From Microbacteriaceae bacterium UBA4731 (GTDB taxonomy: Bacteria; Actinomycetota; Actinomycetes; Actinomycetales; Microbacteriaceae): 21,722 nt of DNA. The stretch spans positions 31,223 through 52,944 of the forward strand of contig DHJB01000055.1 in the NCBI GenBank assembly GCA_002404115.1, read 5' to 3'. Made by a program: the position numbers and the translations under genes. The number at the start of each line of letters is the position of its first letter. Position 1 is the stretch's first letter. Shown here one piece after another: positions 1-12,568 of this stretch. The notes beneath the pieces were generated by a model, which was not told the origin of the DNA, ran no database searches, and was given only the letters and a program-made list of their open reading frames with translations.

Positions 1-537
1 ACCACCGTCTACGTGACCCACGACCAGACCGAGGCCCTGACCATGGGCGACCGCATCGCGGTCCTCAAGGACGGCGTCCTCCAGCAGGTCGGCACCCCGC
101 GCGACCTCTACGCGAAGCCGCAGAACGTCTTCGTTGCCGGCTTCATCGGCAGCCCGGCCATGAACCTGTTCCTGGCCGACACGACCGACGGCGGCATCAG
201 GTTCGGCACCGCGACCGTTCCGGTGCAGCGCGACACCCTCGTCAGCGCATCCGGCAAGAAGGTCACCATCGGCGTTCGCCCGGAGGACATCCACCTGTCC
301 ACCGTGCGGGGCGAAGGCCTCCAGGTAGAGGTCGACCTCGTCGAGGAACTCGGCGCCGACGGCTACCTGTACGGCCACTCCACGGTCGAGGGCAAGCGCA
401 CCGACGTCGTCGCCCGCGTCGACGGCCGTTCGCACCCGAACGCCGGCGACACGGTCTACCTGACCCCGACGCCGAACCACCTGCACGTCTTCGACGCAGA
501 GTCCGGCCTCCGCCTCGGCGGAGCGGTCGCCGACTAG
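1..537 (+). CDS. ABC transporter ATP-binding protein, C-terminal part (UgpC/MsmX/MalK type), 5' end cut by window
   Basis: The reading frame is open from the first base, so only the last 178 residues are present. It begins at the H-loop ([10 protein letters not shown], switch histidine) of a nucleotide-binding domain, followed by [19 protein letters not shown], typical of carbohydrate-importer ATPases. The remainder is a TOBE/OB-fold regulatory domain: [10 protein letters not shown] linker, then [10 protein letters not shown] and [13 protein letters not shown]. Walker A, Walker B and the LSGGQ signature lie upstream of the window. Proteins of this family energise import of sugars, maltodextrins or glycerol-3-phosphate and are often shared by several importers; the substrate cannot be read from this fragment. 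The gene is followed at once by a strong intrinsic terminator, so it ends its transcription unit. Confidence 0.9.
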
Positions 538-558
538 CTCGAACGGAACGCTCATGAC

Positions 559-594
559 CGGCCGGACGGGGCGAAAGCCCAGTCCGGCCGTTTT
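559..594 (+). terminator. Rho-independent terminator of the ABC ATPase gene
   Basis: A 9-bp perfect stem (559-567 with 582-590, CGGCCGGAC/GTCCGGCCG) continues after one mismatch into a 4-bp GGGC/GCCC stem capped by a GAAA tetraloop (573-576). Four T residues follow at 591-594. It starts 22 bp after the stop codon. Confidence 0.9.
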
Positions 595-606
595 GTCGTA
601 CACCGG

Positions 607-612
607 TAGGCT
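607..612 (+). promoter_or_regulatory. -10 element TAGGCT, probable leaderless promoter of the DUF4032 gene
   Basis: TAGGCT lies exactly 6 nt before the ATG at 619, so transcription would start at or next to the A of the start codon. No Shine-Dalgarno sequence is present. No good -35 element is visible; the region at that distance is the arm of the upstream terminator. Confidence 0.5.
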
Positions 613-618
613 CGATTC

Positions 619-1917
619 ATGAGCGGTTCCCTCAACATCACCTCGGCCACTGCAGACCCGGCGCTGCTCGACCTGCCCTGGCATCTCCCCCTCGACGGCT
701 GGCCGAACGAGAACATCGCAGCCCTGCCCAAGGGCATCTCCCGCCACCTCGTGCGTTTCGCCCACCTGAGCGGCCACGTCGTCGCCATCAAGGAAACGAC
801 GAGCGAGATGGCCAGGGGCGAGTACGAGATGCTCCGCACGCTGCAGGGGCTGGAGATCCCCTGCGTCGAGCCCGTCGCCGTGATCACGAACCGCACGGAT
901 GAGGACGGCGAACCGCTGAACTCGGTGCTCGTCACGCGTCACCTCAAGTTCTCGCTCCCCTACCGCGCCCTGTACTCGCAGACCCTGCGCCCCGACACTG
1001 CCACCCGCTTGGTCGACGCCCTGGCCGTGCTGCTCGTGCGCGTGCACATGGTCGGACTCTTCTGGGGCGACGTCTCACTGTCCAACACGCTGTTCCGCCG
1101 CGACGCCGGCGCCTTCGCCGCCTACCTCGTCGACGCGGAGACCGGGCAGCTCTACTCCGGCGGCCTCTCCAACGGGCAGCGTGAGAACGACCTCGAAATC
1201 GCGCGCGTCAACATCGCGGGCGAACTGATGGACCTCGAAGCCGGCGGCCGGGTCGCCGACGAGCTCGACCCGATCCGGGTGAGCAACGGCATCGTCGCCG
1301 CGTACCGGCTGCTCTGGAAGGAGCTCACCAGTTCCGAGTCGTTCTCCAGCACCGAGCGGTGGCGCATCCGGGAGCGCGTCGAACGCCTCAACAACCTCGG
1401 CTTCGACATCGACGAACTCGCGATCAAGACGGACAACACGGGCACGACCGTGCGCATCCAGCCGAAGGTCGTCGACGCCGGACACCACCAACGCCGCCTG
1501 CTGCGCCTGACCGGCCTCGACGCGGAAGAGAACCAGGCCAGGCGCCTGCTCAACGACCTCGACTCCTACCGTGCCGCCTACGGCGACCCGGAGGTTGACG
1601 AGGAGATGCTCGCTCACGAGTGGCTGGTGCGGGTCTTCGAACCCGTTGTCCGGGCCATCCCGCGCGACCTCAAGGGCAAGCTCGAACCGGCAGAGGTGTT
1701 CCACCAGCTGCTCGACCACCGCTGGTTCATGGCGCAGAACCAGTCACGGGAGATCCCGCTGGCCGAGGCCGTCAGCTCGTACGTGCAGGACGTGCTGCGT
1801 CACCGCCGCGATGAGGCCACCGTGATCGAACCGCCGACGGGCTCGATCACTCTGCCGATCACGCTCCCCGCTGGAGCCGACGCCGACGACGAGACCGACT
1901 GGCGCCTCAAGGTCTAA
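619..1917 (+). CDS. DUF4032 family protein with a kinase-like N-terminal domain
   Basis: The 432-residue protein matches the actinobacterial DUF4032 family as I recall it. Its first 200 residues look like a lipopolysaccharide-kinase/protein-kinase fold. VVAIKE gives a candidate ATP lysine (K58), with E68 as a possible partner. WGDVSLSNTLF gives a catalytic-loop-like D151 and N156, and YLVDAETG gives a metal-binding D172. These are the usual positions of a kinase active site, so activity is plausible, but substrate and function are unknown. The C-terminal half (about 230-400) is the DUF4032 portion, rich in charged helices, with RRLLRLTGLDAEENQARRLLNDL near residues 295-317. The tail is low complexity. 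The start is chosen because TAGGCT lies 6 nt upstream. It converges with rlmB across a palindromic element. Confidence 0.75.
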   Translation: MSGSLNITSATADPALLDLPWHLPLDGWPNENIAALPKGISRHLVRFAHLSGHVVAIKETTSEMARGEYEMLRTLQGLEIPCVEPVAVITNRTDEDGEPLNSVLVTRHLKFSLPYRALYSQTLRPDTATRLVDALAVLLVRVHMVGLFWGDVSLSNTLFRRDAGAFAAYLVDAETGQLYSGGLSNGQRENDLEIARVNIAGELMDLEAGGRVADELDPIRVSNGIVAAYRLLWKELTSSESFSSTERWRIRERVERLNNLGFDIDELAIKTDNTGTTVRIQPKVVDAGHHQRRLLRLTGLDAEENQARRLLNDLDSYRAAYGDPEVDEEMLAHEWLVRVFEPVVRAIPRDLKGKLEPAEVFHQLLDHRWFMAQNQSREIPLAEAVSSYVQDVLRHRRDEATVIEPPTGSITLPITLPAGADADDETDWRLKV

Positions 1918-1930
1918 CCCCTCGCCCCTT

Positions 1931-1993
1931 CCGCGAAACTGCAGTTGTGGTCACTAAGACACGTTCTTATCGACCACAACTGCAGTTTCGCGG
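1931..1993. repeat. 63-bp palindromic element, copy 1
   Basis: Perfect 22-bp inverted repeat: arm 1931-1952 pairs with 1972-1993 around a 19-nt spacer. The arm begins CCGCGAAACTGCAGTTGTGG. The spacer has a further 5-bp pairing (TAAGA 1955-1959 with TCTTA 1965-1969). It lies between the convergent 3' ends of the DUF4032 gene (stop 14 bp away) and rlmB (stop 18 bp away). No T tract follows on either strand, so it is not a textbook intrinsic terminator, though it could act as a bidirectional one. Spacer similarity suggests this copy is inverted relative to copies 2 and 3. Confidence 0.9.
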
Positions 1994-2010
1994 GGGGCTG
2001 GGCAGGGGTG

Positions 2011-3081
2011 CTACTTCTTCTTGGCGGCGGCGATCTGCGCGCGGAGGCGGGAGACCTCGTAGAGGGTGACGCCCGCCGCGATGCCGGCGTTGAGCGACTC
2101 GGTCGCAGCGCTGATCGGGATCGACACGATCGCGTCGCACGTTTCGGTGACGAGACGCGAGAGGCCCTTGCCCTCGCTGCCGACGACGATCACGATCGGG
2201 CGCTCGGCGAAGCCGATGCCGAGGTCCGGCAGCTCCACGTCGCCGCCGCCGTCGAGGCCGAGCACGAACACGCCACGCTCCTTGAGCGACTTGAGCGTCT
2301 GGGTGAGGTTGCTCGCCATGGCGACGGGCGTGCGGGCCGCGGCGCCGGCGGAGGTCTTCCAGGCCGAGGCCGTGACGCCGACCGAGCGGCGCTGCGGCAC
2401 GATCACGCCGTGCCCGCCGAAGGCTGCCGTCGAGCGGATGATTGCGCCGAGGTTGCGCGGGTCGGTGATGCCGTCGAGCGCGACGAAGAGCGGCTTGTGG
2501 CCGCGGCTGATCGTGAGGTCGAGCAGCTCCATCGGGTGCGCGTACTCGTAGGCCGGGACCTTGAGCGCGAGTCCCTGGTGCACGGAGTCGCGGCCGGCGA
2601 GGCGGTCGAGCTCCGGGCGCATCACTTCGAGAATCGGGATGTTGCGGTTGTTGGCGAGGGTCAGGATCTCCTTGACCCGGTCATCCATCTCGATGCGCGT
2701 CGCGATGTAGAGGGTGGAGGCCGGGATCTTCGCCCGGAGCGCCTCGAGCACCGAGTTGCGGCCGGTGACGATCTCGTGCTCGTCGACCTGCTTCGCCTTG
2801 CGGGTCGACGCGCCGCCGCCGCCGGTGTTCCCGGTGCCCCGGGAGGCGCCGCGCGGGGCACCCTTCGCTGCGGTGGGGCGGGCGCGGCCGCCGCTGGCCG
2901 CGGTGTAGCGGTCCTCGGCGAGCTTGCGCTTGCCGGCGGGGTGGTACGGACGGTCCTCGGCCTTAGGCGTGGGCTTCTTGCCCTCGAGGGCCTGGCGCCC
3001 CTGGCCGCCCGAGCCGACCTGGGGGCCCCTGGCGCCCTTGCGCACGGCTCCGGTGCGCGCCTTGCGGTCTGTGTTCTTCAT
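2011..3081 (-). CDS. rlmB: 23S rRNA (guanosine-2'-O)-methyltransferase, SpoU/TrmH family (RlmB-like)
   Basis: This 356-residue SPOUT methyltransferase should methylate a ribose 2'-OH in 23S rRNA with S-adenosylmethionine; RlmB acts on G2251, but related actinobacterial enzymes may differ in target. Residues 1-100 are a basic, Gly/Arg/Lys/Ala-rich, probably disordered extension. Residues 103-180 form the substrate-binding domain (GRNSVLEALRAKIPASTLYI). The catalytic domain carries motif 1 (ITDPRNLGAIIRST, N210, R216), motif 2 (GSEGKGLSRL, 301-310) and motif 3 (ESLNAGIAAGVTLYE, N331). The ATG overlaps the cysS stop by one base (TGATG), implying translational coupling. It is last in the ispDF-cysS-rlmB operon, matching Mycobacterium tuberculosis Rv3582c-Rv3579c order as I recall it. 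Confidence 0.9.
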   Translation of the reverse strand: MKNTDRKARTGAVRKGARGPQVGSGGQGRQALEGKKPTPKAEDRPYHPAGKRKLAEDRYTAASGGRARPTAAKGAPRGASRGTGNTGGGGASTRKAKQVDEHEIVTGRNSVLEALRAKIPASTLYIATRIEMDDRVKEILTLANNRNIPILEVMRPELDRLAGRDSVHQGLALKVPAYEYAHPMELLDLTISRGHKPLFVALDGITDPRNLGAIIRSTAAFGGHGVIVPQRRSVGVTASAWKTSAGAAARTPVAMASNLTQTLKSLKERGVFVLGLDGGGDVELPDLGIGFAERPIVIVVGSEGKGLSRLVTETCDAIVSIPISAATESLNAGIAAGVTLYEVSRLRAQIAAAKKK

Positions 3082-4496
3082 CAGTCAAAACTCCAATGTG
3101 CACCCGACGGGGTGTCTTCGATGGTGATTCCGGCGGCGACGAGTTCGTCCCGGATTCGGTCTGCGGCCGCGTAGTCGCGGCTCTGCCTGGCGATTTCCCG
3201 GTCGTCAAGCAGGCGCTCGACGAGGGCGGTGAGAGCGATCATGGCCGGCTCGTCCGTTGCGACGGACCAGCTGGGAGAGAGGGGGTTGATGCCGAGGACC
3301 TCGCTCATGGCGAGCACCTGGCCGCGGGCGGTCGCCGCGGCGTGCAGGTCTTCGGCGTCGAGCGCGGCGTTGCCGGCGCGCACGGTCTCGTGCAGCACAC
3401 CCAGGGCCTGCGGAACGGCGAGGTCGTCGTCCATGGCCTCGGCGAACTCGTCCGGCACGATTTCGACGCCGGACCCGGCGAACCGGGTGTCGGCCAGTCG
3501 GCGGTCGGCCCGGTCGAGGAAACTCTCGATACGCTCGAGCGCGGCCTCGGCCTCGGCGAGCGAGCCTTCGTGGAAGTCGATGGTCGAACGGTAGTGGGCG
3601 GCACCGAGGTAATAACGCACGACGATGGCACGCGCCTGCTCGAGGAGCTCCGCCGCATAGACGGAGTTGCCGAGCGACTTCGACATCTTCTGGCCGTTCA
3701 CGTGGACGAGGCCGTTGTGCATCCAGTAGTTCGCGAACGCGTCGCCGGCCGCGTTGGACTGGGCGAGTTCGTTCTCGTGGTGCGGGAAGCGCAGGTCGAG
3801 GCCGCCGCCGTGGATGTCGAACTGGGCGCCGAGGTAGCGGGAGGCCATGGCGGAGCACTCGATGTGCCAGCCGGGGCGGCCGTCTCCCCAGGGCGACGCC
3901 CAGGTGGCGGAGTCGGGCTCGCCGGCCTTGTGGCCCTTCCAGAGGGCGAAGTCGCGGGGGTCGCGTTTGCCGCGGGGGTCGGCATCCGTTGCCGCCTCCA
4001 TGTTGTCTGGACTCTGCCGGGTGAGCTCGCCGTAACCGGGCCAGCTCCTGGTGTCGAAGTAGACGTCGCCGGTGCCGTCGGCGGCCGGGTAGGCATTCCC
4101 GGCGGCAACCAGCCGATCGATCAGGTCGAGCATGTTCCGGATGCTGGCGGTCGCGCGCGGCTCGTAGCTGGGCGCGAGGATGCCGAGGCGCTGGTAGCCG
4201 GCCGTGAACTCGAGTTCGTACCGGTAGGCGAGCGCCCACCACTGCTCGGTGGTGCCCTCTGCGTTGGCGAGGATCTTGTCGTCGATGTCGGTGACGTTGC
4301 GGATGAAGGTCACGTCGTTGCCGCGGTAGGTGAGCCAGCGGCGCAGCTGGTCGTAGACGAGCGCGCTGCGCAGGTGGCCGATGTGCGGCGACGACTGCAC
4401 CGTCGGCCCGCAGACGTAGATTCCCACCTGGTCGGTGACAAGAGGCGTGAAGTCACGAAGGGCCTGGGCCTTCGAATCGTACAGTCGTATGGTCAC
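3081..4496 (-). CDS. cysS: Cysteine--tRNA ligase
   Basis: A 471-residue class I aminoacyl-tRNA synthetase that charges tRNA-Cys with cysteine. The HIGH motif is at 38-41 ([10 protein letters not shown]) and KMSKS at 270-274. Zinc ligands that confer cysteine selectivity are C29 (YVCGPTV), C214 (WHIECSAMA), H239 and E243 (PHHENE). Full length for the family. The start is a GTG that overlaps the ispDF stop by four bases (GTGA), so it is translated by coupling from ispDF. The mycothiol ligase MshC is a paralogue of this family. Preceded by ispDF and followed by rlmB, this is most likely the housekeeping cysS rather than mshC. Confidence 0.95.
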
Positions 4497-5707
4497 GAGA
4501 CCCAGCTTAGGTCAGGGCCCGGTGCCGGTGCCGGGATGAGCAGCGCGGTCGCCATCGCCGCGATGCCCTCGCCCCGACCGGTGAAGCCGAGGGCGTCGGT
4601 GGTGGTCGCCGAAACGCTGACCGGCGCGTTCAGGATGCCGGCCAGGAAGGCCTCGGCCTCGGCGCGGCGTGGGGAGAGTTTCGGCCGGTTGCCGATGATC
4701 TGCACGGAGACGTTGCCGACCCGGAATCCGGCCTCCTCCACCAGGCGCAGGGTTTCGGCCAGGAAGACATCACCGTGCGCGTTCGCGAAGCGGGCATCGG
4801 ACGTACCGAAGACCCCGCCGACGTCGCCGAGCCCGGCGGCGCCGAGCAGGGCGTCGCAGATGGCGTGCACGGCGGTGTCGCCGTCGCTGTGCCCTGACAG
4901 TCCGCGCTCCCCCGGCCAGTGCAGCCCGGCGAGCCACAGCTCTGAGGTGTCGTCGAAGGCGTGCACGTCCATCGCGGTGCCGATGCGCGGCAGGGCCGTG
5001 GCCGCGCCCGGGGCGCCGAGGAGCAGCTCCGCCCGGCGGAGATCCCATGCCGAGGTGATCTTGAAGGCGAGCTGCTCGCCGGGGATCACGCTCACGGGGT
5101 GACCGGCAGATGCGACCAGGGCCGCGTCATCCGTCGCTTCCGCCGTGGCCGCGGCCAGCGCGGCCACCAGCATCTCGCGGGGAAAGCCCTGCGGGGTCTG
5201 CACGGCGGAAAGTTCGGAGCGATCGACCGTGCCGAGGATGTCGCCGCCGGCACCGATGCGCTTGATGGTGTCGACGACGGGGAGTCCGGGGACGATCCCC
5301 TGGCCGGTGGACCGGACGGCGTCGACGACGGCGTCGCAGAGCGCGGACGGGGTCAGCGCGCGCGCCGCGTCGTGCACGAGCACGACGCTCACGCCCGGCC
5401 GCAGGGCGGCGAGCCCCCGCGAGACGGAGTCCTGCCGGGTGGAGCCGCCGGCAACGACATCGACGAAGCCGATCGCAGCGCCGGCAGCGTCTGCGGCAAT
5501 ATCGCGCGCCTCGGCCAGCTTCGCCTCCGGTGCGACGACGATCACCTGGGCCGGCTCGCGCATGCCGAACACGCCCGCCAGGGCGCGCCAGAGAATCGGG
5601 CGGCCGGCGAGCGGAACGAAGGCCTTCGGCTCGGACTGACCCAGGCGGGTTCCGCTGCCCGCGGCGACGACGATGACCGCGACCGTGGGCGCAGGTGAAT
5701 CAGTCAT
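4493..5707 (-). CDS. ispDF: Bifunctional IspD/IspF (MEP cytidylyltransferase / MEcPP synthase)
   Basis: A 404-residue fusion of two enzymes of the methylerythritol phosphate route to isoprenoids. IspD (about 8-230) has [16 protein letters not shown] for CTP binding, [14 protein letters not shown] and VQTPQGF. IspF (about 240-400) has the zinc ligands D247 and H249 (MDVHAF) and H281 ([10 protein letters not shown]), plus [11 protein letters not shown] and [16 protein letters not shown]. IspDF fusions are best known from alphaproteobacteria and also occur in Microbacteriaceae; mycobacteria keep two genes. The ATG at 5707 has no Shine-Dalgarno sequence: the transcript-sense bases before it read CCTCC. 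A TAGCCT hexamer 6 nt upstream suggests a leaderless start. An intrinsic terminator separates it from carD. First gene of the ispDF-cysS-rlmB unit. Confidence 0.95.
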
Positions 5708-5713
5708 GACAGG

Positions 5714-5742
5714 AGGCTATCTGCTGGGGCGTATCCGGTGAA
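5714..5742 (-). promoter_or_regulatory. Probable leaderless promoter of ispDF
   Basis: On the minus strand TAGCCT (5719-5714) lies 6 nt before the ATG at 5707. A TTCACC hexamer (5742-5737) stands 17 bp further upstream and matches four of six bases of the -35 consensus. An own promoter is expected because carD ends in a terminator just upstream. Confidence 0.55.
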
Positions 5743-5769
5743 GGGATATCGCAAGCGGTGCTGGGAGCG

Positions 5770-5807
5770 AAAAACACGACAGGCGGCACCTTGCGGCGCC
5801 GCCTGTC
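5770..5807 (-). terminator. Rho-independent terminator of carD
   Basis: Perfect 10-bp stem (5807-5798 with 5787-5778 read on the minus strand, GACAGGCGGC/GCCGCCTGTC) with a 10-nt loop. Three bases later comes a run of five T on the minus strand (5774-5770). It begins 15 bp after the carD stop. Confidence 0.88.
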
Positions 5808-5822
5808 AACGCAGCAGTGGAG

Positions 5823-6305
5823 CTAGGAGGCAAGAACCTCGTCGAGAACGCTGGATGCCTTCTCTTCGTCGGTCTTCTCTGCCAGTGCCAGTTCGGAGAT
5901 GAGGATCTGGCGCGCCTTTGCAAGCATGCGCTTCTCCCCGGCCGACAGGCCACGGTCCTGATCGCGGCGCCACAGGTCGCGGACGACCTCCGACACCTTG
6001 ATGACGTCACCGGAAGCGAGCTTCTCCAGGTTCGCCTTGTAGCGACGTGACCAGTTTGTGGGCTCTTCGGTGAACGGTGCGCGGAGCACCTCGAACACCT
6101 TGTCGAGTCCCTCCTTGCCGATGACATCTCGGACGCCGACAAGGTCGACATTCTCGGCCGGAACTTCAATGGTGAGATCGCCCTGAGTAACATTGAGCTT
6201 CAGGTACAGTTTCTCTACACCCTTCATTGTCCGCGTTTTCACCTCGGTGATCGTCGCGGCTCCGTGGTGGGGATAAACGACAGTTTCGCCAACCTCAAAA
6301 AGCAT
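5823..6305 (-). CDS. carD: CarD family RNA polymerase-binding transcription regulator
   Basis: A 160-residue protein, close to the 162 residues of mycobacterial CarD. The N-terminal RNA-polymerase-interaction (Tudor-like) domain starts [17 protein letters not shown]. The C-terminal helical DNA-binding part contains [17 protein letters not shown], with the tryptophan that wedges into promoter DNA upstream of the bubble. CarD stabilises open complexes at rRNA and other promoters. The start at 6305 is preferred over an in-frame TTG at 6326, because homologues begin MLFEVG or MIFKVG and AAGGGA lies 9 nt upstream. It is divergent from the LpqE-like lipoprotein gene, the same arrangement as mycobacterial Rv3583c-Rv3584. 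Confidence 0.95.
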
Positions 6306-6314
6306 GTATTTATA

Positions 6315-6320
6315 TCCCTT
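6315..6320 (-). promoter_or_regulatory. Ribosome binding site deciding the carD start
   Basis: AAGGGA on the minus strand, 9 nt before the ATG at 6305. It falls inside the longer alternative reading from TTG 6326 and therefore argues for the shorter protein. Confidence 0.65.
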
Positions 6321-6331
6321 CAGCAACGTCT

Positions 6332-6337
6332 AGGATA
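6332..6337 (-). promoter_or_regulatory. Candidate -10 of the carD promoter (TATCCT with upstream TG)
   Basis: On the minus strand TGG-TATCCT resembles an extended -10. It would give a leader of about 20 nt that carries the AAGGGA site. No convincing -35 is seen. Confidence 0.35.
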
Positions 6338-6463
6338 CCACAGGCCGCGGTGGTAAGGTTCGCCGAGCCTATGTGCCCCTTCCGCCCTCCGTTTCACCTG
6401 CGCGAGGGCCCTTCGGCTTGCCGCCCCAGCCTGTCGCGCCGGCTTGTCGCCCGCGTGCGCCGG

Positions 6464-6474
6464 TAGGCTAAACT
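6464..6474 (+). promoter_or_regulatory. Candidate -10 region of the LpqE-like gene
   Basis: Two overlapping hexamers, TAGGCT (6464-6469) and TAAACT (6469-6474). TAGGCT is identical to the -10 proposed for the DUF4032 gene. TTGTCG at 6444-6449 could be a -35, but the spacing (14 or 19 bp) is not ideal. The leader would be about 60 nt and would contain the hairpin at 6489-6518. Confidence 0.35.
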
Positions 6475-6488
6475 CAAAGCGAAATCTG

Positions 6489-6518
6489 CAGCGTTCTGGC
6501 CACTCCGGCCGAACGCTG
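6489..6518 (+). other. Stable hairpin in the leader of the LpqE-like gene
   Basis: CAGCGTTC (6489-6496) pairs with GAACGCTG (6511-6518). After a one-base bulge (T6497), GGCC pairs with GGCC around a 5-nt loop. It ends 9 nt before the GGAGG ribosome site at 6528. No T run follows, so it is not a terminator; it may affect stability or translation of the lipoprotein mRNA. Confidence 0.6.
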
Positions 6519-6536
6519 AATCGTTGTGGAGGTCTT

Positions 6537-7073
6537 GTGAGGGCGCGTATCGCCGCTTCCGTCGTTCTGGCGGCTGGCATTCTGATGGGAACGAGTGCCT
6601 GCGATCTGCTGGCCCCCCAGGCAACGACCAACCACTACGACGCGAGCGACGGGGTGAGCGGGACCGTGGGCGACATCGCCGTCCGCAACGCCATCCTGAT
6701 CTCGGACGGCGCCACCTCGGCCAACCTCCTGGTCACGATCGTCAACACGGGCGATTCGGCCCGCAACCTCAGCGTGCAGTACACCGCCGCCGGCCAGAAG
6801 GTCACGCAGCAGGTGACCGTCGCACCGAAGGCCACGGTCAGTTTCGGCACCCCCGACGTCCCGGCCGTGACGCTCGCCAACATCGACGCGAAGCCCGGCG
6901 CGCTCTTCCCCGTCTTCGTGCAGTACGGGCAGGAGACCGGCGTTGAACTGCTGGTGCCTGTGCTCGACGGAACGCTCAGCCAGTACTCGACCCTGGTTCC
7001 GACCGCAACGCCTACTCCCACGGCACAGACGCCAACGCCGGCAGTAACGCCCACGCCGACGCCCACTCCCTAG
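6537..7073 (+). CDS. LpqE-like secreted lipoprotein with Thr-Pro tail
   Basis: The GTG start at 6537 is chosen because GGAGG (6528-6532) lies just upstream and the protein then begins with a proper lipoprotein signal peptide: VRARIAASVVLAAGILMGTSAC, lipidated cysteine at residue 22. The longer frame from 6444 would bury the signal. The mature part (about 30-150) is predicted all-beta, with conserved-looking segments VRNAILISDG, LLVTIVNTGD and TVSFGTPD, ending in a low-complexity Thr/Pro repeat. Its place opposite carD matches mycobacterial lpqE (Rv3584), so orthology is inferred mainly from synteny plus lipoprotein character. Function is unknown; the fold could resemble periplasmic copper-chaperone-like beta domains, but no metal motif is evident. 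178 residues. Confidence 0.7.
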   Translation: MRARIAASVVLAAGILMGTSACDLLAPQATTNHYDASDGVSGTVGDIAVRNAILISDGATSANLLVTIVNTGDSARNLSVQYTAAGQKVTQQVTVAPKATVSFGTPDVPAVTLANIDAKPGALFPVFVQYGQETGVELLVPVLDGTLSQYSTLVPTATPTPTAQTPTPAVTPTPTPTP

Positions 7074-7099
7074 GCGCGCACCGGCTCAGGCCTGTTGGC

Positions 7100-7780
7100 T
7101 CAGGCCTCGAAGCGGTAGCCGAGGCCTCTCACCGTCACGAGCATGACCGGCTCCGAGGGTGTCGCTTCGATGCGCGAGCGGATGCGCTTGATGTGAACGT
7201 CGAGCGTCTTGGTGTCGCCGAAGTAGTCGCTTCCCCAGACCCGGTCGATCAGTTGTCCCCTGGTGAGCACGCGGCCGGCGTTGCGCAGCAGGAACTCGAG
7301 CAGTTCGAATTCCTTCAGCGGCAGGTTGACCAGCTCGCCGGACACCTCGACGGTGTGCCGCTCGAGGTCCATCCGCACCGTGCCGGCCGACAGGAGGCTC
7401 TCGTTCTCCGGTTCCTTGTCCACCCACCGGCGCGTGACCGCACGGATGCGGGCGAGCAGTTCCCGGGTGGAGTACGGCTTGGTGACGTAGTCGTCGGCTC
7501 CCAGCTCCAGCCCGACCACGATGTCGACCTCCGAGTCCTTGGCGGTGAGCATGATGATCGGCACGGAGGAGCGCGTGCGAATCTCCCGGCACACCTCGGT
7601 CCCGGGAAGACCAGGAAGCATCAGGTCGAGCAGGACGACGTCGGCGCCGGTGCGGTCGAACTCGGTGATCGCGCTCGGGCCGTCCTCGGCGACCGTGACC
7701 TCGTAGCCCTCGCGTTCCAGGAGATAACTGAGCGGCTCGCTGAGCGAACGCTCGTCTTCCACCAGGAGGATATGCGTCAC
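7100..7780 (-). CDS. regX3: Phosphate-responsive response regulator RegX3 (OmpR family)
   Basis: A 226-residue two-domain regulator. The receiver domain (1-115) has the acidic pocket E8/D9, phospho-acceptor D52 (VVLLDLMLPG), T79 and K101 (DDYVTKPYS), so it is a fully competent phospho-switch. The winged-helix DNA-binding domain (about 130-226) contains LPLKEFELLEFLLRNAGRVL and ends GLGYRFEA. With SenX3 it controls phosphate-starvation genes in actinobacteria. It starts with GTG and overlaps senX3 by four bases (GTGA), with AGGAG about 8 nt upstream. It converges with the LpqE-like gene with only 26 bp between stops and no clear terminator. Likely targets in this window are the PHO-type repeats upstream of pstS and phoU. 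Confidence 0.93.
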   Translation of the reverse strand: MTHILLVEDERSLSEPLSYLLEREGYEVTVAEDGPSAITEFDRTGADVVLLDLMLPGLPGTEVCREIRTRSSVPIIMLTAKDSEVDIVVGLELGADDYVTKPYSTRELLARIRAVTRRWVDKEPENESLLSAGTVRMDLERHTVEVSGELVNLPLKEFELLEFLLRNAGRVLTRGQLIDRVWGSDYFGDTKTLDVHIKRIRSRIEATPSEPVMLVTVRGLGYRFEA

Positions 7781-8931
7781 GGGGTGTCTCCTGTCGCCGG
7801 CTGGGCCGGGGTGGTCGCCTCTGGGAGGCGGATGGTGAACGTCGATCCGCTGCCTTGCTGTGACCAGACGCGGATGTCGCCGCCGTGGTTCTGCACGACG
7901 TGCTTCACGATCGCCAGGCCGAGGCCGGTGCCGCCGGTGTGCCGGGAGCGGGCCTGGTCGACCCGGAAGAACCGCTCGAAGATCCGGTCGAGGTCGGCCT
8001 CCGGGATGCCGACGCCCTGGTCGGTGACCGTGATTTCCACGGCGCCCTTGTGTCGCCTCATGCCGACGCCCACGCGGGAGCCGTCTGACGAGTAGTGCAC
8101 GGCATTCGCGATGAGGTTGTGGATCGCCACGGTCAGCAGCCGTTCGTCGCCGAGCACGTGTGCGCCCGACTTCTTGCCGACGGCGATCGTGATGTGGTCG
8201 GCGTTGGCGACGACCTTGCTCTGGTCGACCGCGGCGGCGACGACGGCGTCGATGTCCACGAGTTCGGGCTCGGCCAGCGCATCCTGGGCCTGCAGCCGGG
8301 ACAGTTCGATGATCTCCTGCGTGAGGCGGCCGAGCCGGCCGGACTCGGTGGTGAGACGGTTGGCGAAACGACGAACCTGCTCCGGTTCATCCGCCGCCTG
8401 GTCGATGGCCTCGGCGAGCAGGCCCACCGAGGCGATCGGGGTCTTCAGTTCGTGGCTGATGTTGGCGACGAAGTCGCGGCGCACCTCGTCGAGGCGGAAG
8501 GCCTCTGTGCGGTCTTCGGCGAGCAGGAGCACGTACCGGGTGCCCAACCTGGCAACTCGAACCCTGATGTGCATGCTCGCGTCGCCGAACGGGCCGCGGG
8601 AGAGCACGAGGTCGGTGGAGATCGGCTCGCCGGTGCGGCGCACCCGGCCGGCGAGCTCAAGCAGTTCGGGGTGCGCGAACTGCTGGTTCCAGACGAGGCC
8701 CATCGCGAGGGCGCCGGGCGAGGTTTTGATGACGTTGTTCGACGGGTCGAGCACGACCCCGGCGGACTCGAGGGCGTCGAGCACCTGGTCGATGCCGTCG
8801 GGAACCGCGGGGTTGACCACGTCGGCGGCGCGGCGGCCGTGACGCTCGGCGACGTGCAGCAGGGTCACGAATCCGGCGCCGACGGCCAGCCCGAGTGCCA
8901 GCGACAGCAGCACGAGCCAGGTGGATTCCAT
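7777..8931 (-). CDS. senX3: Phosphate-sensing histidine kinase SenX3
   Basis: A 384-residue sensor kinase. One N-terminal membrane segment (about 5-27) is followed directly by a PAS-like domain (about 45-145), with no sizeable extracellular domain. This fits the view that SenX3 senses through the Pst/PhoU complex rather than binding phosphate itself. The H-box is DFVANISHELKTPI (H160), the N-box NLIANAVHYS (N276), G1 DQGVGIP (304-310), the F-box around 318-322 and G2 GGTGLGLAI (333-341). The stop overlaps the regX3 start. The ATG at 8931 has a TAATCT hexamer 6 nt upstream, suggesting a leaderless mRNA. Divergent from phoU. The senX3-regX3-gpmA neighbourhood resembles Rv0489-Rv0491. Confidence 0.93.
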   Translation of the reverse strand: MESTWLVLLSLALGLAVGAGFVTLLHVAERHGRRAADVVNPAVPDGIDQVLDALESAGVVLDPSNNVIKTSPGALAMGLVWNQQFAHPELLELAGRVRRTGEPISTDLVLSRGPFGDASMHIRVRVARLGTRYVLLLAEDRTEAFRLDEVRRDFVANISHELKTPIASVGLLAEAIDQAADEPEQVRRFANRLTTESGRLGRLTQEIIELSRLQAQDALAEPELVDIDAVVAAAVDQSKVVANADHITIAVGKKSGAHVLGDERLLTVAIHNLIANAVHYSSDGSRVGVGMRRHKGAVEITVTDQGVGIPEADLDRIFERFFRVDQARSRHTGGTGLGLAIVKHVVQNHGGDIRVWSQQGSGSTFTIRLPEATTPAQPATGDTP

Positions 8932-8937
8932 TTCCCC

Positions 8938-8943
8938 AGATTA
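8938..8943 (-). promoter_or_regulatory. -10 element TAATCT, probable leaderless promoter of senX3-regX3
   Basis: TAATCT on the minus strand ends 6 nt before the senX3 ATG (spacer GGGGAA). No recognisable -35 at 16-18 bp. Transcription would begin at the start codon. Confidence 0.5.
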
Positions 8944-9002
8944 GTGACATTTGCGGCCCTCCCCCGCTGCGAGCGGGCTGGGCGGGCGGTACGTTAGGAA
9001 GT

Positions 9003-9035
9003 GTTCAAGCCCGCGGCACCTGCCGTTAACCTTCT
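9003..9035 (+). promoter_or_regulatory. Degenerate PHO-box-like direct repeat between senX3 and phoU
   Basis: Three units in strict 11-bp register: GTTCAAG at 9003, CGGCACC at 9014 and GTTAACC at 9025. The reference unit seen upstream of pstS is GTTCACC with the same 11-bp period. Each unit departs from it by two bases. Its position, 85 bp before phoU and 60 bp from the senX3 promoter, suits RegX3 autoregulation and phoU control. Confidence 0.45.
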
Positions 9036-9119
9036 CCCGGCACGATCACCGGGGGGCCAGGCGGGTCTCACGTGCCAGCCGGAGCCCGAGCGCCCGGCGG
9101 CCAGGAAGGACCAACCATC

Positions 9120-9776
9120 ATGCGCGAAGTATTTCAGCAGGAACTTGCCGAGGTGCAGGAGCGTCTCGTCGAGATCGCCCGCCTGGTAGCCATCTCCATC
9201 GACAAGGCCACGCGCGCGTTCAACGAATCGGATGTGAGCCTCGCCGAGGAGGTCATCGCGGACGACGACAAGATCGACGCGCTCACGGTGGAGCTCGACG
9301 AACTGGCCATCACGATCCTCGCCCGGCAGCAGCCGGTGGCGCGCGACCTGCGCATCGTCGTCAGTGCGCTGCGCATCAGCGCGTCCCTCGAACGGATGGG
9401 CGACATGTCGACCCACATCTCGCAGCTCGCCCGCTACCGCTTCCCGGACAAGGTCATCCCGAAGAGCCTGCGGCCGACCTTCGCCGAGATGGGCGAGCTG
9501 GACGTCAAGATCGCCAACATGCTCACCGAGCTGCTCACCACCGAAGACATGAAGCTGGCGGAGACCATCCGCAATGAAGACGACAAGATCGACGCGCTGC
9601 ACCTGAGCGTGTTCGACGCGGTGCTCGGCGAAACCTGGAAGGGCCAGGCCGCCGACACGGTGGACGCCACGCTGGCCAGCCGGTACCACGAGCGGTTCGC
9701 TGACCACGCCGTCTCGATCGCGAAGAAGGTGCAGTACCTCGGCACGGGCGACTGGCACCCGGCCGGCCCGGCGTAA
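9120..9776 (+). CDS. phoU: Phosphate transport/signalling regulator PhoU
   Basis: A 218-residue all-helical protein of two three-helix bundles. The duplicated PhoU metal-binding signature is visible as DDDKIDALTVELDE and NEDDKIDALHLSVFD. PhoU connects the Pst transporter to the sensor kinase and represses the phosphate response when phosphate is plentiful. The start at 9120 (MREVFQQELAEVQ) is preferred to an in-frame ATG at 9072: AGGAAGGA at 9103-9110 is well placed, and homologues begin this way. It is divergent from senX3 and converges with gpmA across palindromic element copy 2. The mycobacterial equivalents are PhoY1/PhoY2. Confidence 0.95.
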   Translation: MREVFQQELAEVQERLVEIARLVAISIDKATRAFNESDVSLAEEVIADDDKIDALTVELDELAITILARQQPVARDLRIVVSALRISASLERMGDMSTHISQLARYRFPDKVIPKSLRPTFAEMGELDVKIANMLTELLTTEDMKLAETIRNEDDKIDALHLSVFDAVLGETWKGQAADTVDATLASRYHERFADHAVSIAKKVQYLGTGDWHPAGPA

Positions 9777-9795
9777 CACTGCGATCCGTCTGCCA

Positions 9796-9858
9796 CCGCG
9801 AAAACGCAGTTGTGGTCATTCTGAGCGCGTTTTAGCGACCACAACTGCGTTTTCGCGG
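9796..9858. repeat. 63-bp palindromic element, copy 2
   Basis: Perfect 22-bp inverted repeat (9796-9817 with 9837-9858) around a 19-nt spacer. The arm begins CCGCGAAAACGCAGTTGTGG. It differs from copy 1 at two adjacent arm positions (AC instead of CT), and both changes are mirrored in the opposite arm. It lies between the convergent stops of phoU (19 bp away) and gpmA (8 bp away). The spacer GAGCGCGTTTTAG is identical to copy 3 over 13 bases. Confidence 0.9.
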
Positions 9859-9866
9859 GGGTGGGG

Positions 9867-10616
9867 CTACTTCTTGCCCTGCGCGGCGACGGCGGCGGCG
9901 CCAGCCGCTGCGGCCTCCGGGTCCAGGTACTCGCCGGGGCCGAGCGGCATGAGGTCCTCGCCGAGCCTGTAGACGAGCGGGATGCCGGTGGGGATGTTGA
10001 GCTCGGCGATGTCGGCGTCGGAGATGCCGTCGAGGTGCTTGACCAGGGCGCGCAGCGAGTTGCCGTGGGCGGTGACGAGCACGGTCTTGCCCGTGCGGAG
10101 GTCGGCCGCGATGTCGGACTCCCAGTAGGGCAGCATCCGCTCGACGACGTCCTTGAGGCATTCGGTGCGCGGGATGGCGTCACCCAGGTCCGCGTAGCGG
10201 GGGTCGTTCACCTGCGACCACTTGGAATCGTCGGCGAGCACGGGCGGCGGAACGTCGTACGACCGGCGCCAGAGCTGGAACTGCTCCGGCCCGAACTTCG
10301 CCAGGGTCTCGGCCTTGTCCAGGCCCTGCAGCGCGCCGTAGTGGCGTTCGTTCAGGCGCCAGGAGCGCTTCACGTCGATCCACAGGCGGTCGGCCTGCTC
10401 GAGCGCGAGGTTCGCGGTCTGGATGGCGCGGGTGAGCACGGAGGTGTGCACGATGTCGGGGTGCAGGCCGGACTCGGCGATGAGCTCGCCGGCGCGGCGA
10501 GCCTCGATGATGCCCTGTTCACTGAGCCTCACGTCCACCCAGCCGGTAAAGAGGTTCTGATGGTTCCACAGGCTCTGGCCGTGGCGAAGGAGGATGAGTG
10601 TGTATGGCTCAGACAT
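9867..10616 (-). CDS. gpmA: 2,3-bisphosphoglycerate-dependent phosphoglycerate mutase
   Basis: A 249-residue cofactor-dependent mutase interconverting 3- and 2-phosphoglycerate in glycolysis. The phosphohistidine loop is [10 protein letters not shown] (R11, H12). R63 ([11 protein letters not shown]), E90 ([13 protein letters not shown]) and H184 ([11 protein letters not shown]) complete the active site. The length is normal. The start at ATG 10616 is preferred over an in-frame GTG at 10625: the GTG overlaps a TAGAGT -10 hexamer that lies 7 nt before ATG 10616, and homologues start shortly before YTLILLRHG. It is next to senX3-regX3/phoU, as in mycobacteria (gpm1-senX3-regX3), although here phoU intervenes. 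Confidence 0.93.
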
Positions 10617-10623
10617 GGCATCC

Positions 10624-10629
10624 ACTCTA
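10624..10629 (-). promoter_or_regulatory. -10 element TAGAGT, probable leaderless promoter of gpmA
   Basis: TAGAGT on the minus strand, 7 nt before ATG 10616. No ribosome site or clear -35. Palindromic element copy 3 ends 19 bp upstream of this hexamer and so borders the promoter. Confidence 0.45.
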
Positions 10630-10648
10630 CCGAGAGCTGAGCTCCCCT

Positions 10649-10711
10649 CCGCGAAACTGCAGTCGTGGTCGTTCTGAGCGCGTTTTAGTGACCACTACTG
10701 CAGTTTCGCGG
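10649..10711. repeat. 63-bp palindromic element, copy 3
   Basis: 22-bp arms (10649-10670 and 10690-10711) around a 19-nt spacer, with a single C/T mismatch at arm position 16 (C10664 opposite T10696). The arm begins CCGCGAAACTGCAGTCGTGG, closest to copy 1 in the arm, while its spacer matches copy 2. Outside the arms CCCC (10644-10647) can pair with GGGG (10713-10716) after a T/T mismatch. It lies 25 bp beyond the ygfZ stop and upstream of gpmA, both on the minus strand, so it could separate the two units. Confidence 0.9.
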
Positions 10712-10736
10712 TGGGGGAAGGGAACGCGAGGCGGGG

Positions 10737-11909
10737 CTAGTGGCCGGGGGTGCGGATGCCGAGGCGCGGGAACCGGGGAATGTCGGCGACCGAACCGGCC
10801 GACGGCGGCACGATCACTTCCTGGGCGGCCGCGATCGAGAGGCCCTGCGACTGCACGTAGAGGGTGCTCGTCGCGGGCACGGTGCGCTTGATGACGGCGA
10901 GCGCGATCGGCCCGAGCTCGTGGTGGATGGCGCTGGAGGTGACGATGCCGACGGCGGCGCGCTCCGTCTCCCCCTCCTCGCCGCCCGGGACCCGCCGGTC
11001 GGCCTGCACTTCGTCGCCGTGCACGGGCAGCACCGAATCCGAGCCGTCGAGGTGCAGCAGCACCAGCCGGCGCGGCGGATGCCCGAGGTTGTGCACCTTC
11101 GCCACGGTCTCCTGGCCTCGGTAGCAGCCCTTGTTCAGGTGCACGGCCGTGCGCAGCCAGTCCAGCTCGTGCGGGATAGTCTTCTCGTCGGCCTCAGTGG
11201 CGGCCCGCGGGCGCCAAGCGGCGATGCGCAGGGCCTCGAACGCGAGCAGCCCGGCGGCCGCGGGGGTTCCGCCGGCCACGGCGTCCCGCAACGCGGCGAG
11301 CGCGGCACGGGGCACGAGCACCTCGGTCCAGTGCCAGCCGGCGCCCGGGTGCACGGCCGCCTCGGAGTACTGGTAGCCGCCGGCCGTGACGCCGGCCCAC
11401 GGGTCGCGCCAGAGAAGGGGCGCACCGTTCGGGGCTGACGGCGCCAGACCGACCGCCGATGGGTCGGCTGCCATCGTGCCGACGACGGCGTAGTCCGGGG
11501 TGTGGTCGGCGATCTCCACCCGCAGGGTGAACCGCATCCGGTCGAGCCAGGCCTGCAGGCCGGGCAGTTCGGCGGCCTCGACGATCAGGTAGGTTTCGAC
11601 GCCGTCGTCGAGCAGCTGGATGGCGTATTGCAACCGGCCGGTCGGGTCGAGCAGCAGCGTTTCCGTCGATTCGCCCGGGGTGAGGCCCCGCAGTTCCTGG
11701 CTGGACATCGAATTGAGCCAGCTCAGGCGGTCCGGCCCGGCAACACCGAGCACGCCCCGGTGGGACAGGTCGACGATGGCGTCGCCGGCCAGCAGGCTGC
11801 GCTGCTCGATCATCGGGTTGCCGTAGTGCGCGGCGACGCCCGCGTCGATGCCCTGCGCCGCGACGGCGCCCGGGAGGTCAAGCAGGGGGGAAACGGATGC
11901 TGGGGTCAC
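10737..11909 (-). CDS. ygfZ: YgfZ/GcvT-type folate-binding protein (Fe-S cluster assembly or repair)
   Basis: The YgfZ signature KGCYRGQETVAK, with its conserved cysteine, identifies the family. The fold is that of aminomethyltransferase GcvT, and known members bind tetrahydrofolate and support certain iron-sulfur enzymes, perhaps under oxidative stress. VVGVAGPDRLSWLNS-like text (GVLGVAGPDRLSWLN) and the C-terminal VGIVTSSAIHHELGPIALAVIKR fit the GcvT domains. The frame is open back to 12023, but that part overlaps the upstream gene and is low quality. GTG 11909, giving MTPASVSPLLDLPGAVAA (390 residues), is preferred because homologues begin near LPGAVA; no good ribosome site is visible. It follows the FABP-like gene by 44 bp on the same strand. 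Confidence 0.85.
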   Translation of the reverse strand: MTPASVSPLLDLPGAVAAQGIDAGVAAHYGNPMIEQRSLLAGDAIVDLSHRGVLGVAGPDRLSWLNSMSSQELRGLTPGESTETLLLDPTGRLQYAIQLLDDGVETYLIVEAAELPGLQAWLDRMRFTLRVEIADHTPDYAVVGTMAADPSAVGLAPSAPNGAPLLWRDPWAGVTAGGYQYSEAAVHPGAGWHWTEVLVPRAALAALRDAVAGGTPAAAGLLAFEALRIAAWRPRAATEADEKTIPHELDWLRTAVHLNKGCYRGQETVAKVHNLGHPPRRLVLLHLDGSDSVLPVHGDEVQADRRVPGGEEGETERAAVGIVTSSAIHHELGPIALAVIKRTVPATSTLYVQSQGLSIAAAQEVIVPPSAGSVADIPRFPRLGIRTPGH

Positions 11910-11953
11910 GATGCTCGATTCGACTGTGGCTATTCGGTGTGGCTGGGGTGCGC

Positions 11954-12568
11954 CTAGTCGGCTCGCGCGAGGCGACCGGACGCGTGGGTGCGCAGGCTCT
12001 GGCCGAGGGCGGCAATGTCCCACGCCCAGAGGAGGTGTTTGTCGACCAGTCCGTAGAGACGTGTCGCCGCCGCGTAGGGCTTCGCGCCCTGCGTGCGCAG
12101 CACGGCATCCGTCGCCAGGTCGATCCGGGGGCCCTTGACCTGGCCCAGGTAGAGCTCGGCGACGCCGCCGGGGTGCGCGAGGGTCACTTCGATGTCGAAG
12201 CCGCCGTCCGCGTTACGTAACGTTTCAACCTCGTCGGCGGTCGCATACGGCCGGTCGCCGAACCCGGGAAGGAGGCCCGGACCTGGGTCGCCGGCGAGCT
12301 GGGGACGGCTCAGGCGCCAGTACCCGGTCTCCGTCACGAGCGGCGTTTTCTCGTCGCCGCCCGACTCAGGGTCGGCTTCGAGCCAGGTGTACGAGCTGTA
12401 GTTGAGGTGCGGAAGGCCGTCGTGGCTGAAGCTCAGGCGATGGCCGAATTCGCGGGTGACCGACTCGTCGCCGATCGTGTATTCCAGTATTCCGGAGCCC
12501 TCCCAGACCCCGATGAGCCAGGAGAGCGGAACCAGTTCGGAAGGAAGCTGGGTCGGAAGCTCGAACAT
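11954..12568 (-). CDS. FABP-like/nitrobindin family heme-binding protein
   Basis: A 204-residue beta-barrel protein of the DUF1794/THAP4-like (nitrobindin) family. The diagnostic GVWEGSG (GxWxGxG, residues 20-26) follows PLSWLI. The C-terminal DKHLLWAWDIAALGQ and a histidine near 195 (THASGRL) match the heme-proximal region of the family. Members bind ferric heme and can react with nitric oxide or peroxynitrite; Mycobacterium tuberculosis Rv0813c is a relative. The ATG lies 5 nt after the stop of a 37-codon membrane microprotein gene, with only a distant G-rich segment as a ribosome site, so translation may depend on reinitiation. YgfZ follows, suggesting a shared link to redox or cluster protection. 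Confidence 0.88.
   Translation of the reverse strand: MFELPTQLPSELVPLSWLIGVWEGSGILEYTIGDESVTREFGHRLSFSHDGLPHLNYSSYTWLEADPESGGDEKTPLVTETGYWRLSRPQLAGDPGPGLLPGFGDRPYATADEVETLRNADGGFDIEVTLAHPGGVAELYLGQVKGPRIDLATDAVLRTQGAKPYAAATRLYGLVDKHLLWAWDIAALGQSLRTHASGRLARAD

Follow-up and report, generated by a model that had tools for sequence, protein, structure and literature searches.

The 21,722-nt stretch of Microbacteriaceae bacterium UBA4731 analyzed here (contig DHJB01000055.1, positions 31,223 to 52,944; hereafter the window) carries three copies of a 63-bp palindrome. They probably represent, in solo form, the end sequence of a nuclease element flanked by palindromes, and are most likely either solo targets of a homing-like element or the footprints left by it; its binding to, cleavage of and movement between such sites we infer. 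A preliminary description had located the three palindromes, and our analysis bore out both their positions and their fixed format of 22-bp arms around a spacer of exactly 19 nt in every copy:

1931-1993, no strand assigned: copy 1, with arms 1931-1952 and 1972-1993 and spacer 1953-1971, in the convergent gap 1918-2010
9796-9858, + strand: copy 2, with arms 9796-9817 and 9837-9858 and spacer 9818-9836, in the convergent gap 9777-9866
10649-10711, + strand: copy 3, with arms 10649-10670 and 10690-10711 and spacer 10671-10689, in the gap 10626-10736

Copies 1 and 2 have convergent neighboring open reading frames (ORFs), and copy 3 lies between two ORFs that are both on the - strand. The 22-bp left arm starts with CCGCGAAA and ends with GTGGTC. 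The arms pair perfectly in copies 1 and 2, with one mismatch in copy 3 (TCGTGG versus TAGTGG), and copies 2 and 3 also have similar spacers (TTCTGAGCGCGTTTTAG), so that these two share the whole 63 bp and not the arms alone. When the window was scanned for the arm motif with up to three mismatches allowed, six matches were found, all mismatch-free (three elements with two arms each), against a mean of 0.05 in 100 shuffles, none of which reached six; the repetition is thus far beyond chance, in agreement with the preliminary description.

In relatives, which were reached through the window proteins (the closest gpm-like protein, that of G582, is 90% identical) and whose names suggest that they belong to the Microbacteriaceae, related palindromes occur singly or in pairs about 1 kb apart, and in all five pairs that we looked at, a single gene lies between the two palindromes. 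Predictions give the encoded protein two parts, an AbiEi-like DNA-binding region (residues about 3-199) and, fused to it, a Vsr/EDxHD-type nuclease domain (about 202-309). Among 82 members, the C-terminal domain was matched by PF18741 in 68 and by PF04480 in 51 (E ≤ 0.01), and each of the Pfam AbiEi models matched only one. The modeled nuclease domain appears to have a Vsr-like catalytic fold with conserved acidic and His residues, as in EDxHD homing endonucleases, and the nearest solved catalytic domain is that of I-Bth0305I. Profile homologues were found in 34 of the 35 genomes searched (E ≤ 1e-8; 172 matches summed) and, when 60 genomes of a single actinobacterial class were sampled, in 39 of them (E ≤ 1e-20), and several genomes carry several such genes with different arms (e.g., G654).

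We fetched 90 loci of the 172 matches, a non-random sample taken mostly from the top of the list, and scored 87 of them; in the other three (L189, L218 and L227) the best profile stretch was shorter than 200 positions. Similarity between the upstream and downstream flanks reached a score of 15 in 60 of the 87 loci and 20 in 46, compared with two and none, respectively, of 235 control ORFs. Among 1500 pairs of mismatched flanks, 1.1% and 0.5% reached these scores. Four loci were seeds of the profile, so that their own top profile scores arise by construction; without them, 56 and 42 of 83 loci reached the two scores. A score of 15 was also reached by 25 of 33 loci from genomes picked for lacking a window-type element, and by 23 of 30 loci fetched from the one-class sample (one locus, the best-matching, from each of 30 of the 39 genomes that had any). 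A palindrome was called near the gene in 76 of the 87 loci. In many loci it lies about 50-150 bp upstream of the start of the profile, and a second one is often found at or over the stop codon; wherever both the downstream palindrome and the gene end were known (L159, L160, L156, L157, L158 and L155), the two overlap. Furthermore, similar proteins have similar arms (Spearman 0.25, reached in 0 of 2000 permutations; Mantel test on 40 loci).

Comparison of two sites between relatives showed that the nuclease gene is present in some alleles of a site and absent from others. In five relatives with left flanks 96-98% identical, G298 and G466 have palindrome, gene and palindrome, and G542, G506 and G419 have a lone palindrome at exactly the same place. 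The second site holds L160 (G653) and L159 (G680), the nuclease genes nearest to the window family. Their flank is present in all 57 congeners, of which 30 were fetched. Of the 28 fetched besides G653 and G680, 27 lack the element and have the flanking genes 28-390 bp apart. In the remaining one, G650 (L309), these genes are 1.16 kb apart, and the stretch between them gave no clear nuclease match (best E 0.08); the start of this stretch carries CCGAGCCGTGAGTTTC, an arm found around the G553 gene L178. In the five relatives of the first site (L275-L279), an alignment read by eye suggests that, just left of the palindrome, the palindrome supplies the last codons and the stop of a neighboring response-regulator-like gene; this end (..RLSTRAQ and stop) resembles the tail ..RAQ of nuclease L196.

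The window copies themselves resemble the ends of such elements. Against an arm library limited to loci with a flank score of at least 13, copies 1, 2 and 3 scored 19, 20 and 20, respectively, with the palindromes around L160, a Cryobacterium-type gene, the maximum of the null being 12 (300 shuffles); under other scoring settings, L160, L159 and L156 ranked first for the window arms. Moreover, parts of copies 2 and 3, read in frame, resemble the end of a nuclease:

9798-9824, + strand: copy 2, AKTQLWSF and stop, resembling a nuclease C-terminal tail
10651-10677, + strand: copy 3, AKLQSWSF and stop, comparable to ANLQSWSL (P0006) and ARSESWSF (P0026, P0029 and P0034)
10695-10709, - strand: copy 3 read on the other strand, AKLQ and stop, comparable to ANLQ (P0003 and P0014) and AKPQ (P0001, P0002 and P0004)

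The nuclease tails come from a protein search, and the metagenomic ones were compared as protein. Copy 1 has no such stop in the same frame. By these in-frame tails, copies 2 and 3 resemble ends of the downstream type, belonging to a gene that the window lacks: its best match to an AbiEi-Vsr-type nuclease had an E of only 0.28. Two proteins, P0005 (on a 28-kb contig) and P0006, are 79% identical to L160 and have the tails ANPQSWSL and ANLQSWSL, the closest to the AKLQSWSF of the window among the 120 matches listed; they offer leads to the cognate gene.

Related palindromes are dispersed in other genomes as well. When up to three mismatches were allowed, a pattern of both inner arms with the fixed 19-nt spacer was found in 33 of the family's 398 genomes; 15 genomes had at least two places, against three for the reversed pattern used as control, and eight had at least three places, against none. 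Single matches carry little weight, because the reversed control also matched singly in many genomes. Within the genus of G582, 8 of 57 genomes matched, with seven places in G654, four in G681, three in G653 and two in G680, and the control never matched more than one place per genome. The arms vary between genomes, remain self-complementary and show a recurring core like GCA(G/C)T.GTGGTC. By a crude gene caller, 34 GTGGT-type palindromes, at least eight of which adjoin nuclease genes, were placed 14 times between convergent genes, 18 times between tandem genes, once between divergent genes and once within an ORF. A one-arm scan of a collection with one genome per species gave 14 stray matches, none of which had a second arm. 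Four Janthinobacterium genomes (L005, L010, L012 and L013) have the identical exact one-arm match CGCGAAAAAGCAGTAGTGGTC with no second arm, which is probably an unrelated conserved sequence.

The window-type core is absent from the orthologous stretches of 20 relatives (L087-L106), and the gaps of copies 1 and 3 show further signs suggestive of movement. The ORFs around the copies are, on our own reading, presumably kinase-like (619-1917) and rlmB-like (2011-3081) beside copy 1, phoU-like (9072-9776) and gpm-like (9867-10625) beside copy 2, and the latter and ygfZ-like (10737-12023) beside copy 3. In the gap matching that of copy 1, G311 has a complete element, and the palindromes of G630 and G519 match another nuclease family (19 and 17; null maximum 12). 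This gap also has a nuclease gene adjoining rlmB in G472, a truncated one in G426 and, again beside rlmB, fragments in G375. The gpm-ygfZ gap of copy 3 measures 111 nt between ORFs in the window; in five of seven congeners it measures 32-82 nt between alignment ends with no palindrome called, and in the other two 146 and 158 nt with weak palindromes. In G582, the closest relative by gpm, a different repeat of GTCTCGAC(A/G)GGCTCGACCACCGG units fills gaps, namely the gpm-ygfZ gap of L087 and the place after the conserved flank gene of L285.

These observations can be combined in a scheme in which the complete element consists of palindrome, gene and palindrome, as in the relatives. A pair of protein molecules would sit on the two 22-bp arms and cleave the DNA in the 19-nt spacer; such a dimer would explain the fixed 22-19-22 format. 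A cut solo that is repaired from a complete element would then gain the gene, and the gene may be lost again when its two flanking palindromes recombine, which would leave a solo. The arrival of solos at new loci would be a further part of the scheme. Two precedents fit its components: I-Bth0305I dimerizes on a target of nearly 60 bp, as the cited part of PMC3943268 describes, and the promoters of AbiEi antitoxins contain inverted repeats to which the antitoxins themselves bind, according to the cited part of PMC7319586.

Several points weigh against this explanation. The cognate gene of the window's own palindrome family was not seen among the sequences compared, and G681 has four window-type solos with no close nuclease (best 227.5 bits). 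There are few copies per genome, at most seven by the three-mismatch pattern, and neither a target-site duplication nor an excision was observed. One solo with the same neighbor is common to G298, G466 and G506, so that solos can be old and vertically inherited. Palindromes were called on both sides in only 41 of the 87 loci, and 27 of the 87 score below 15, without clear matching flanks. The correlation between proteins and arms (Spearman 0.25) is modest, derives mostly from pairs of close relatives and ignores kinship. Finally, a nuclease bracketed by its own targets would presumably cut its own flanks too, which needs an extra rule.

Could the palindromes instead be operators? The AbiEi-like part would then autoregulate its own gene by way of the upstream palindrome, and the solos would be binding sites at other genes, with nothing moving. 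The inverted repeats bound by AbiEi antitoxins and the palindrome upstream of the profile's start speak for such a regulon; we nevertheless consider it unlikely, since a second palindrome often sits at or over the stop codon, few palindromes have a promoter-only position (1 of the 34 is divergent, with 14 convergent, 18 tandem and one intra-ORF), and close relatives differ at the same sites in having a solo or a complete element, or an empty site or a complete one. Less likely still is that the palindromes are bidirectional terminators sharing sequence by chance, between which the nuclease genes merely lie. Their hairpins are very stable (-40.5 to -46.1 kcal/mol), two of the three window copies are in convergent gaps, and 16 of 18 measured orthologous phoU-gpm gaps, the site of copy 2, contain palindromes of other sequence (score of at least 10). 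However, the window palindromes have no canonical U-run, and a terminator scan of 1-12500 called none of the three, although its loop limit of 3-8 nt may disfavor stems with a 19-nt spacer. Flanks agree across the gene within a locus and not between loci (the 1.1% of mismatched pairs given above), termination needs no fixed 22-19-22 format, and the copy upstream of the gene start is left unexplained. In addition, two of the phoU-gpm palindromes of relatives were compared with the nuclease families, and neither matched any of them (scores of 10 and 8, with 12 as the maximum of the null); ordinary terminators are therefore a separate thing. Of the transcription-end function suggested in the preliminary description, a possible side effect is what is left. 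The terminator scan also found a canonical 14-pair terminator with a T-run at 5777-5808 on the - strand, which suggests that ordinary intrinsic terminators exist in the genome of the window.

Classical repetitive extragenic palindrome (REP) and REPIN elements, which are typically numerous in a genome and often arranged as inverted pairs, and which are moved by a REP-associated tyrosine transposase (RAYT; Y1/HUH), are a very improbable explanation. As the cited part of PMC3116915 describes them, they are small dispersed extragenic palindromes that are tied to one gene family, lie beside the gene of a dedicated enzyme, differ in family by genome and also occur as solos elsewhere. In the nuclease element, too, palindromes flank the gene of its dedicated enzyme (similar flanks in 60 of 87 loci, compared with 2 of 235 control ORFs), but this enzyme is a different one: not a Y1 transposase but a nuclease, Vsr-like by prediction, that also has an AbiEi-like part. 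Few copies were seen per genome, and the palindrome is about 57-63 bp, with a fixed spacer in the window family. The transposase family itself (PF01797) was found in none of 23 element-bearing genomes (E ≤ 0.001), with matches in 5 of 14 control genomes. Hence, the earlier leading guess of a REP/MITE-like (MITE, miniature inverted-repeat transposable element) palindrome dispersed in trans is partly supported and points the right way: other genomes have related palindromes that are tied to a dedicated gene, but a tyrosine transposase as its mover was not found.

The palindrome-flanked nuclease element also differs from other known systems. It is like MITEs and insertion sequences in that the ends are dispersed away from the gene carrying the same ends, and unlike them in that no target-site duplication was seen and the gene is not a recognized transposase. 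Unlike the genes of EDxHD homing endonucleases such as I-Bth0305I, the gene lies between two whole palindromes and its product, for which cleavage is presumed, has an AbiEi-like DNA-binding region; no intron or intein was noticed at the nuclease genes, although no search was aimed at them. Unlike AbiEi antitoxins of type IV toxin-antitoxin systems, the AbiEi-like region is fused to a nuclease domain. The C-terminal domain is shared with DUF559 / REase_MTES_1575 proteins (PF18741 and PF04480). The cited part of PMC3710099 describes MTES_1575 itself as having several domains (HEPN, transglutaminase and winged helix-turn-helix) and makes no mention of palindrome bracketing for it. Among the matches listed from the open-licence PubMed Central (PMC) literature, a palindrome-bracketed Vsr/DUF559/AbiEi gene is undescribed, which is no proof of its being unpublished.

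Taken more broadly, the evidence is evenly poised on whether there is an actinomycete-wide selfish class, in which the gene of an AbiEi-Vsr homing-type nuclease has a copy of the enzyme's own palindromic target (~60 bp) on either side and scattered intergenic solo targets account for orphan palindromes. REP/RAYT-like systems would then have been invented a second time, independently, with a Vsr-like nuclease in place of the HUH enzyme. Actinobacterial genomes contain orphan palindromes, and for one class of these the element offers an enzyme and a mechanism that can be tested; it also offers a role for the common, unexplained family of DUF559 / MTES_1575-like genes. Should the enzyme prove to cut its own palindrome, the two would form a REP/RAYT-like partnership from unrelated parts, and the family would provide a set of nucleases with long targets that stand next to the gene in the genome and can be read there.

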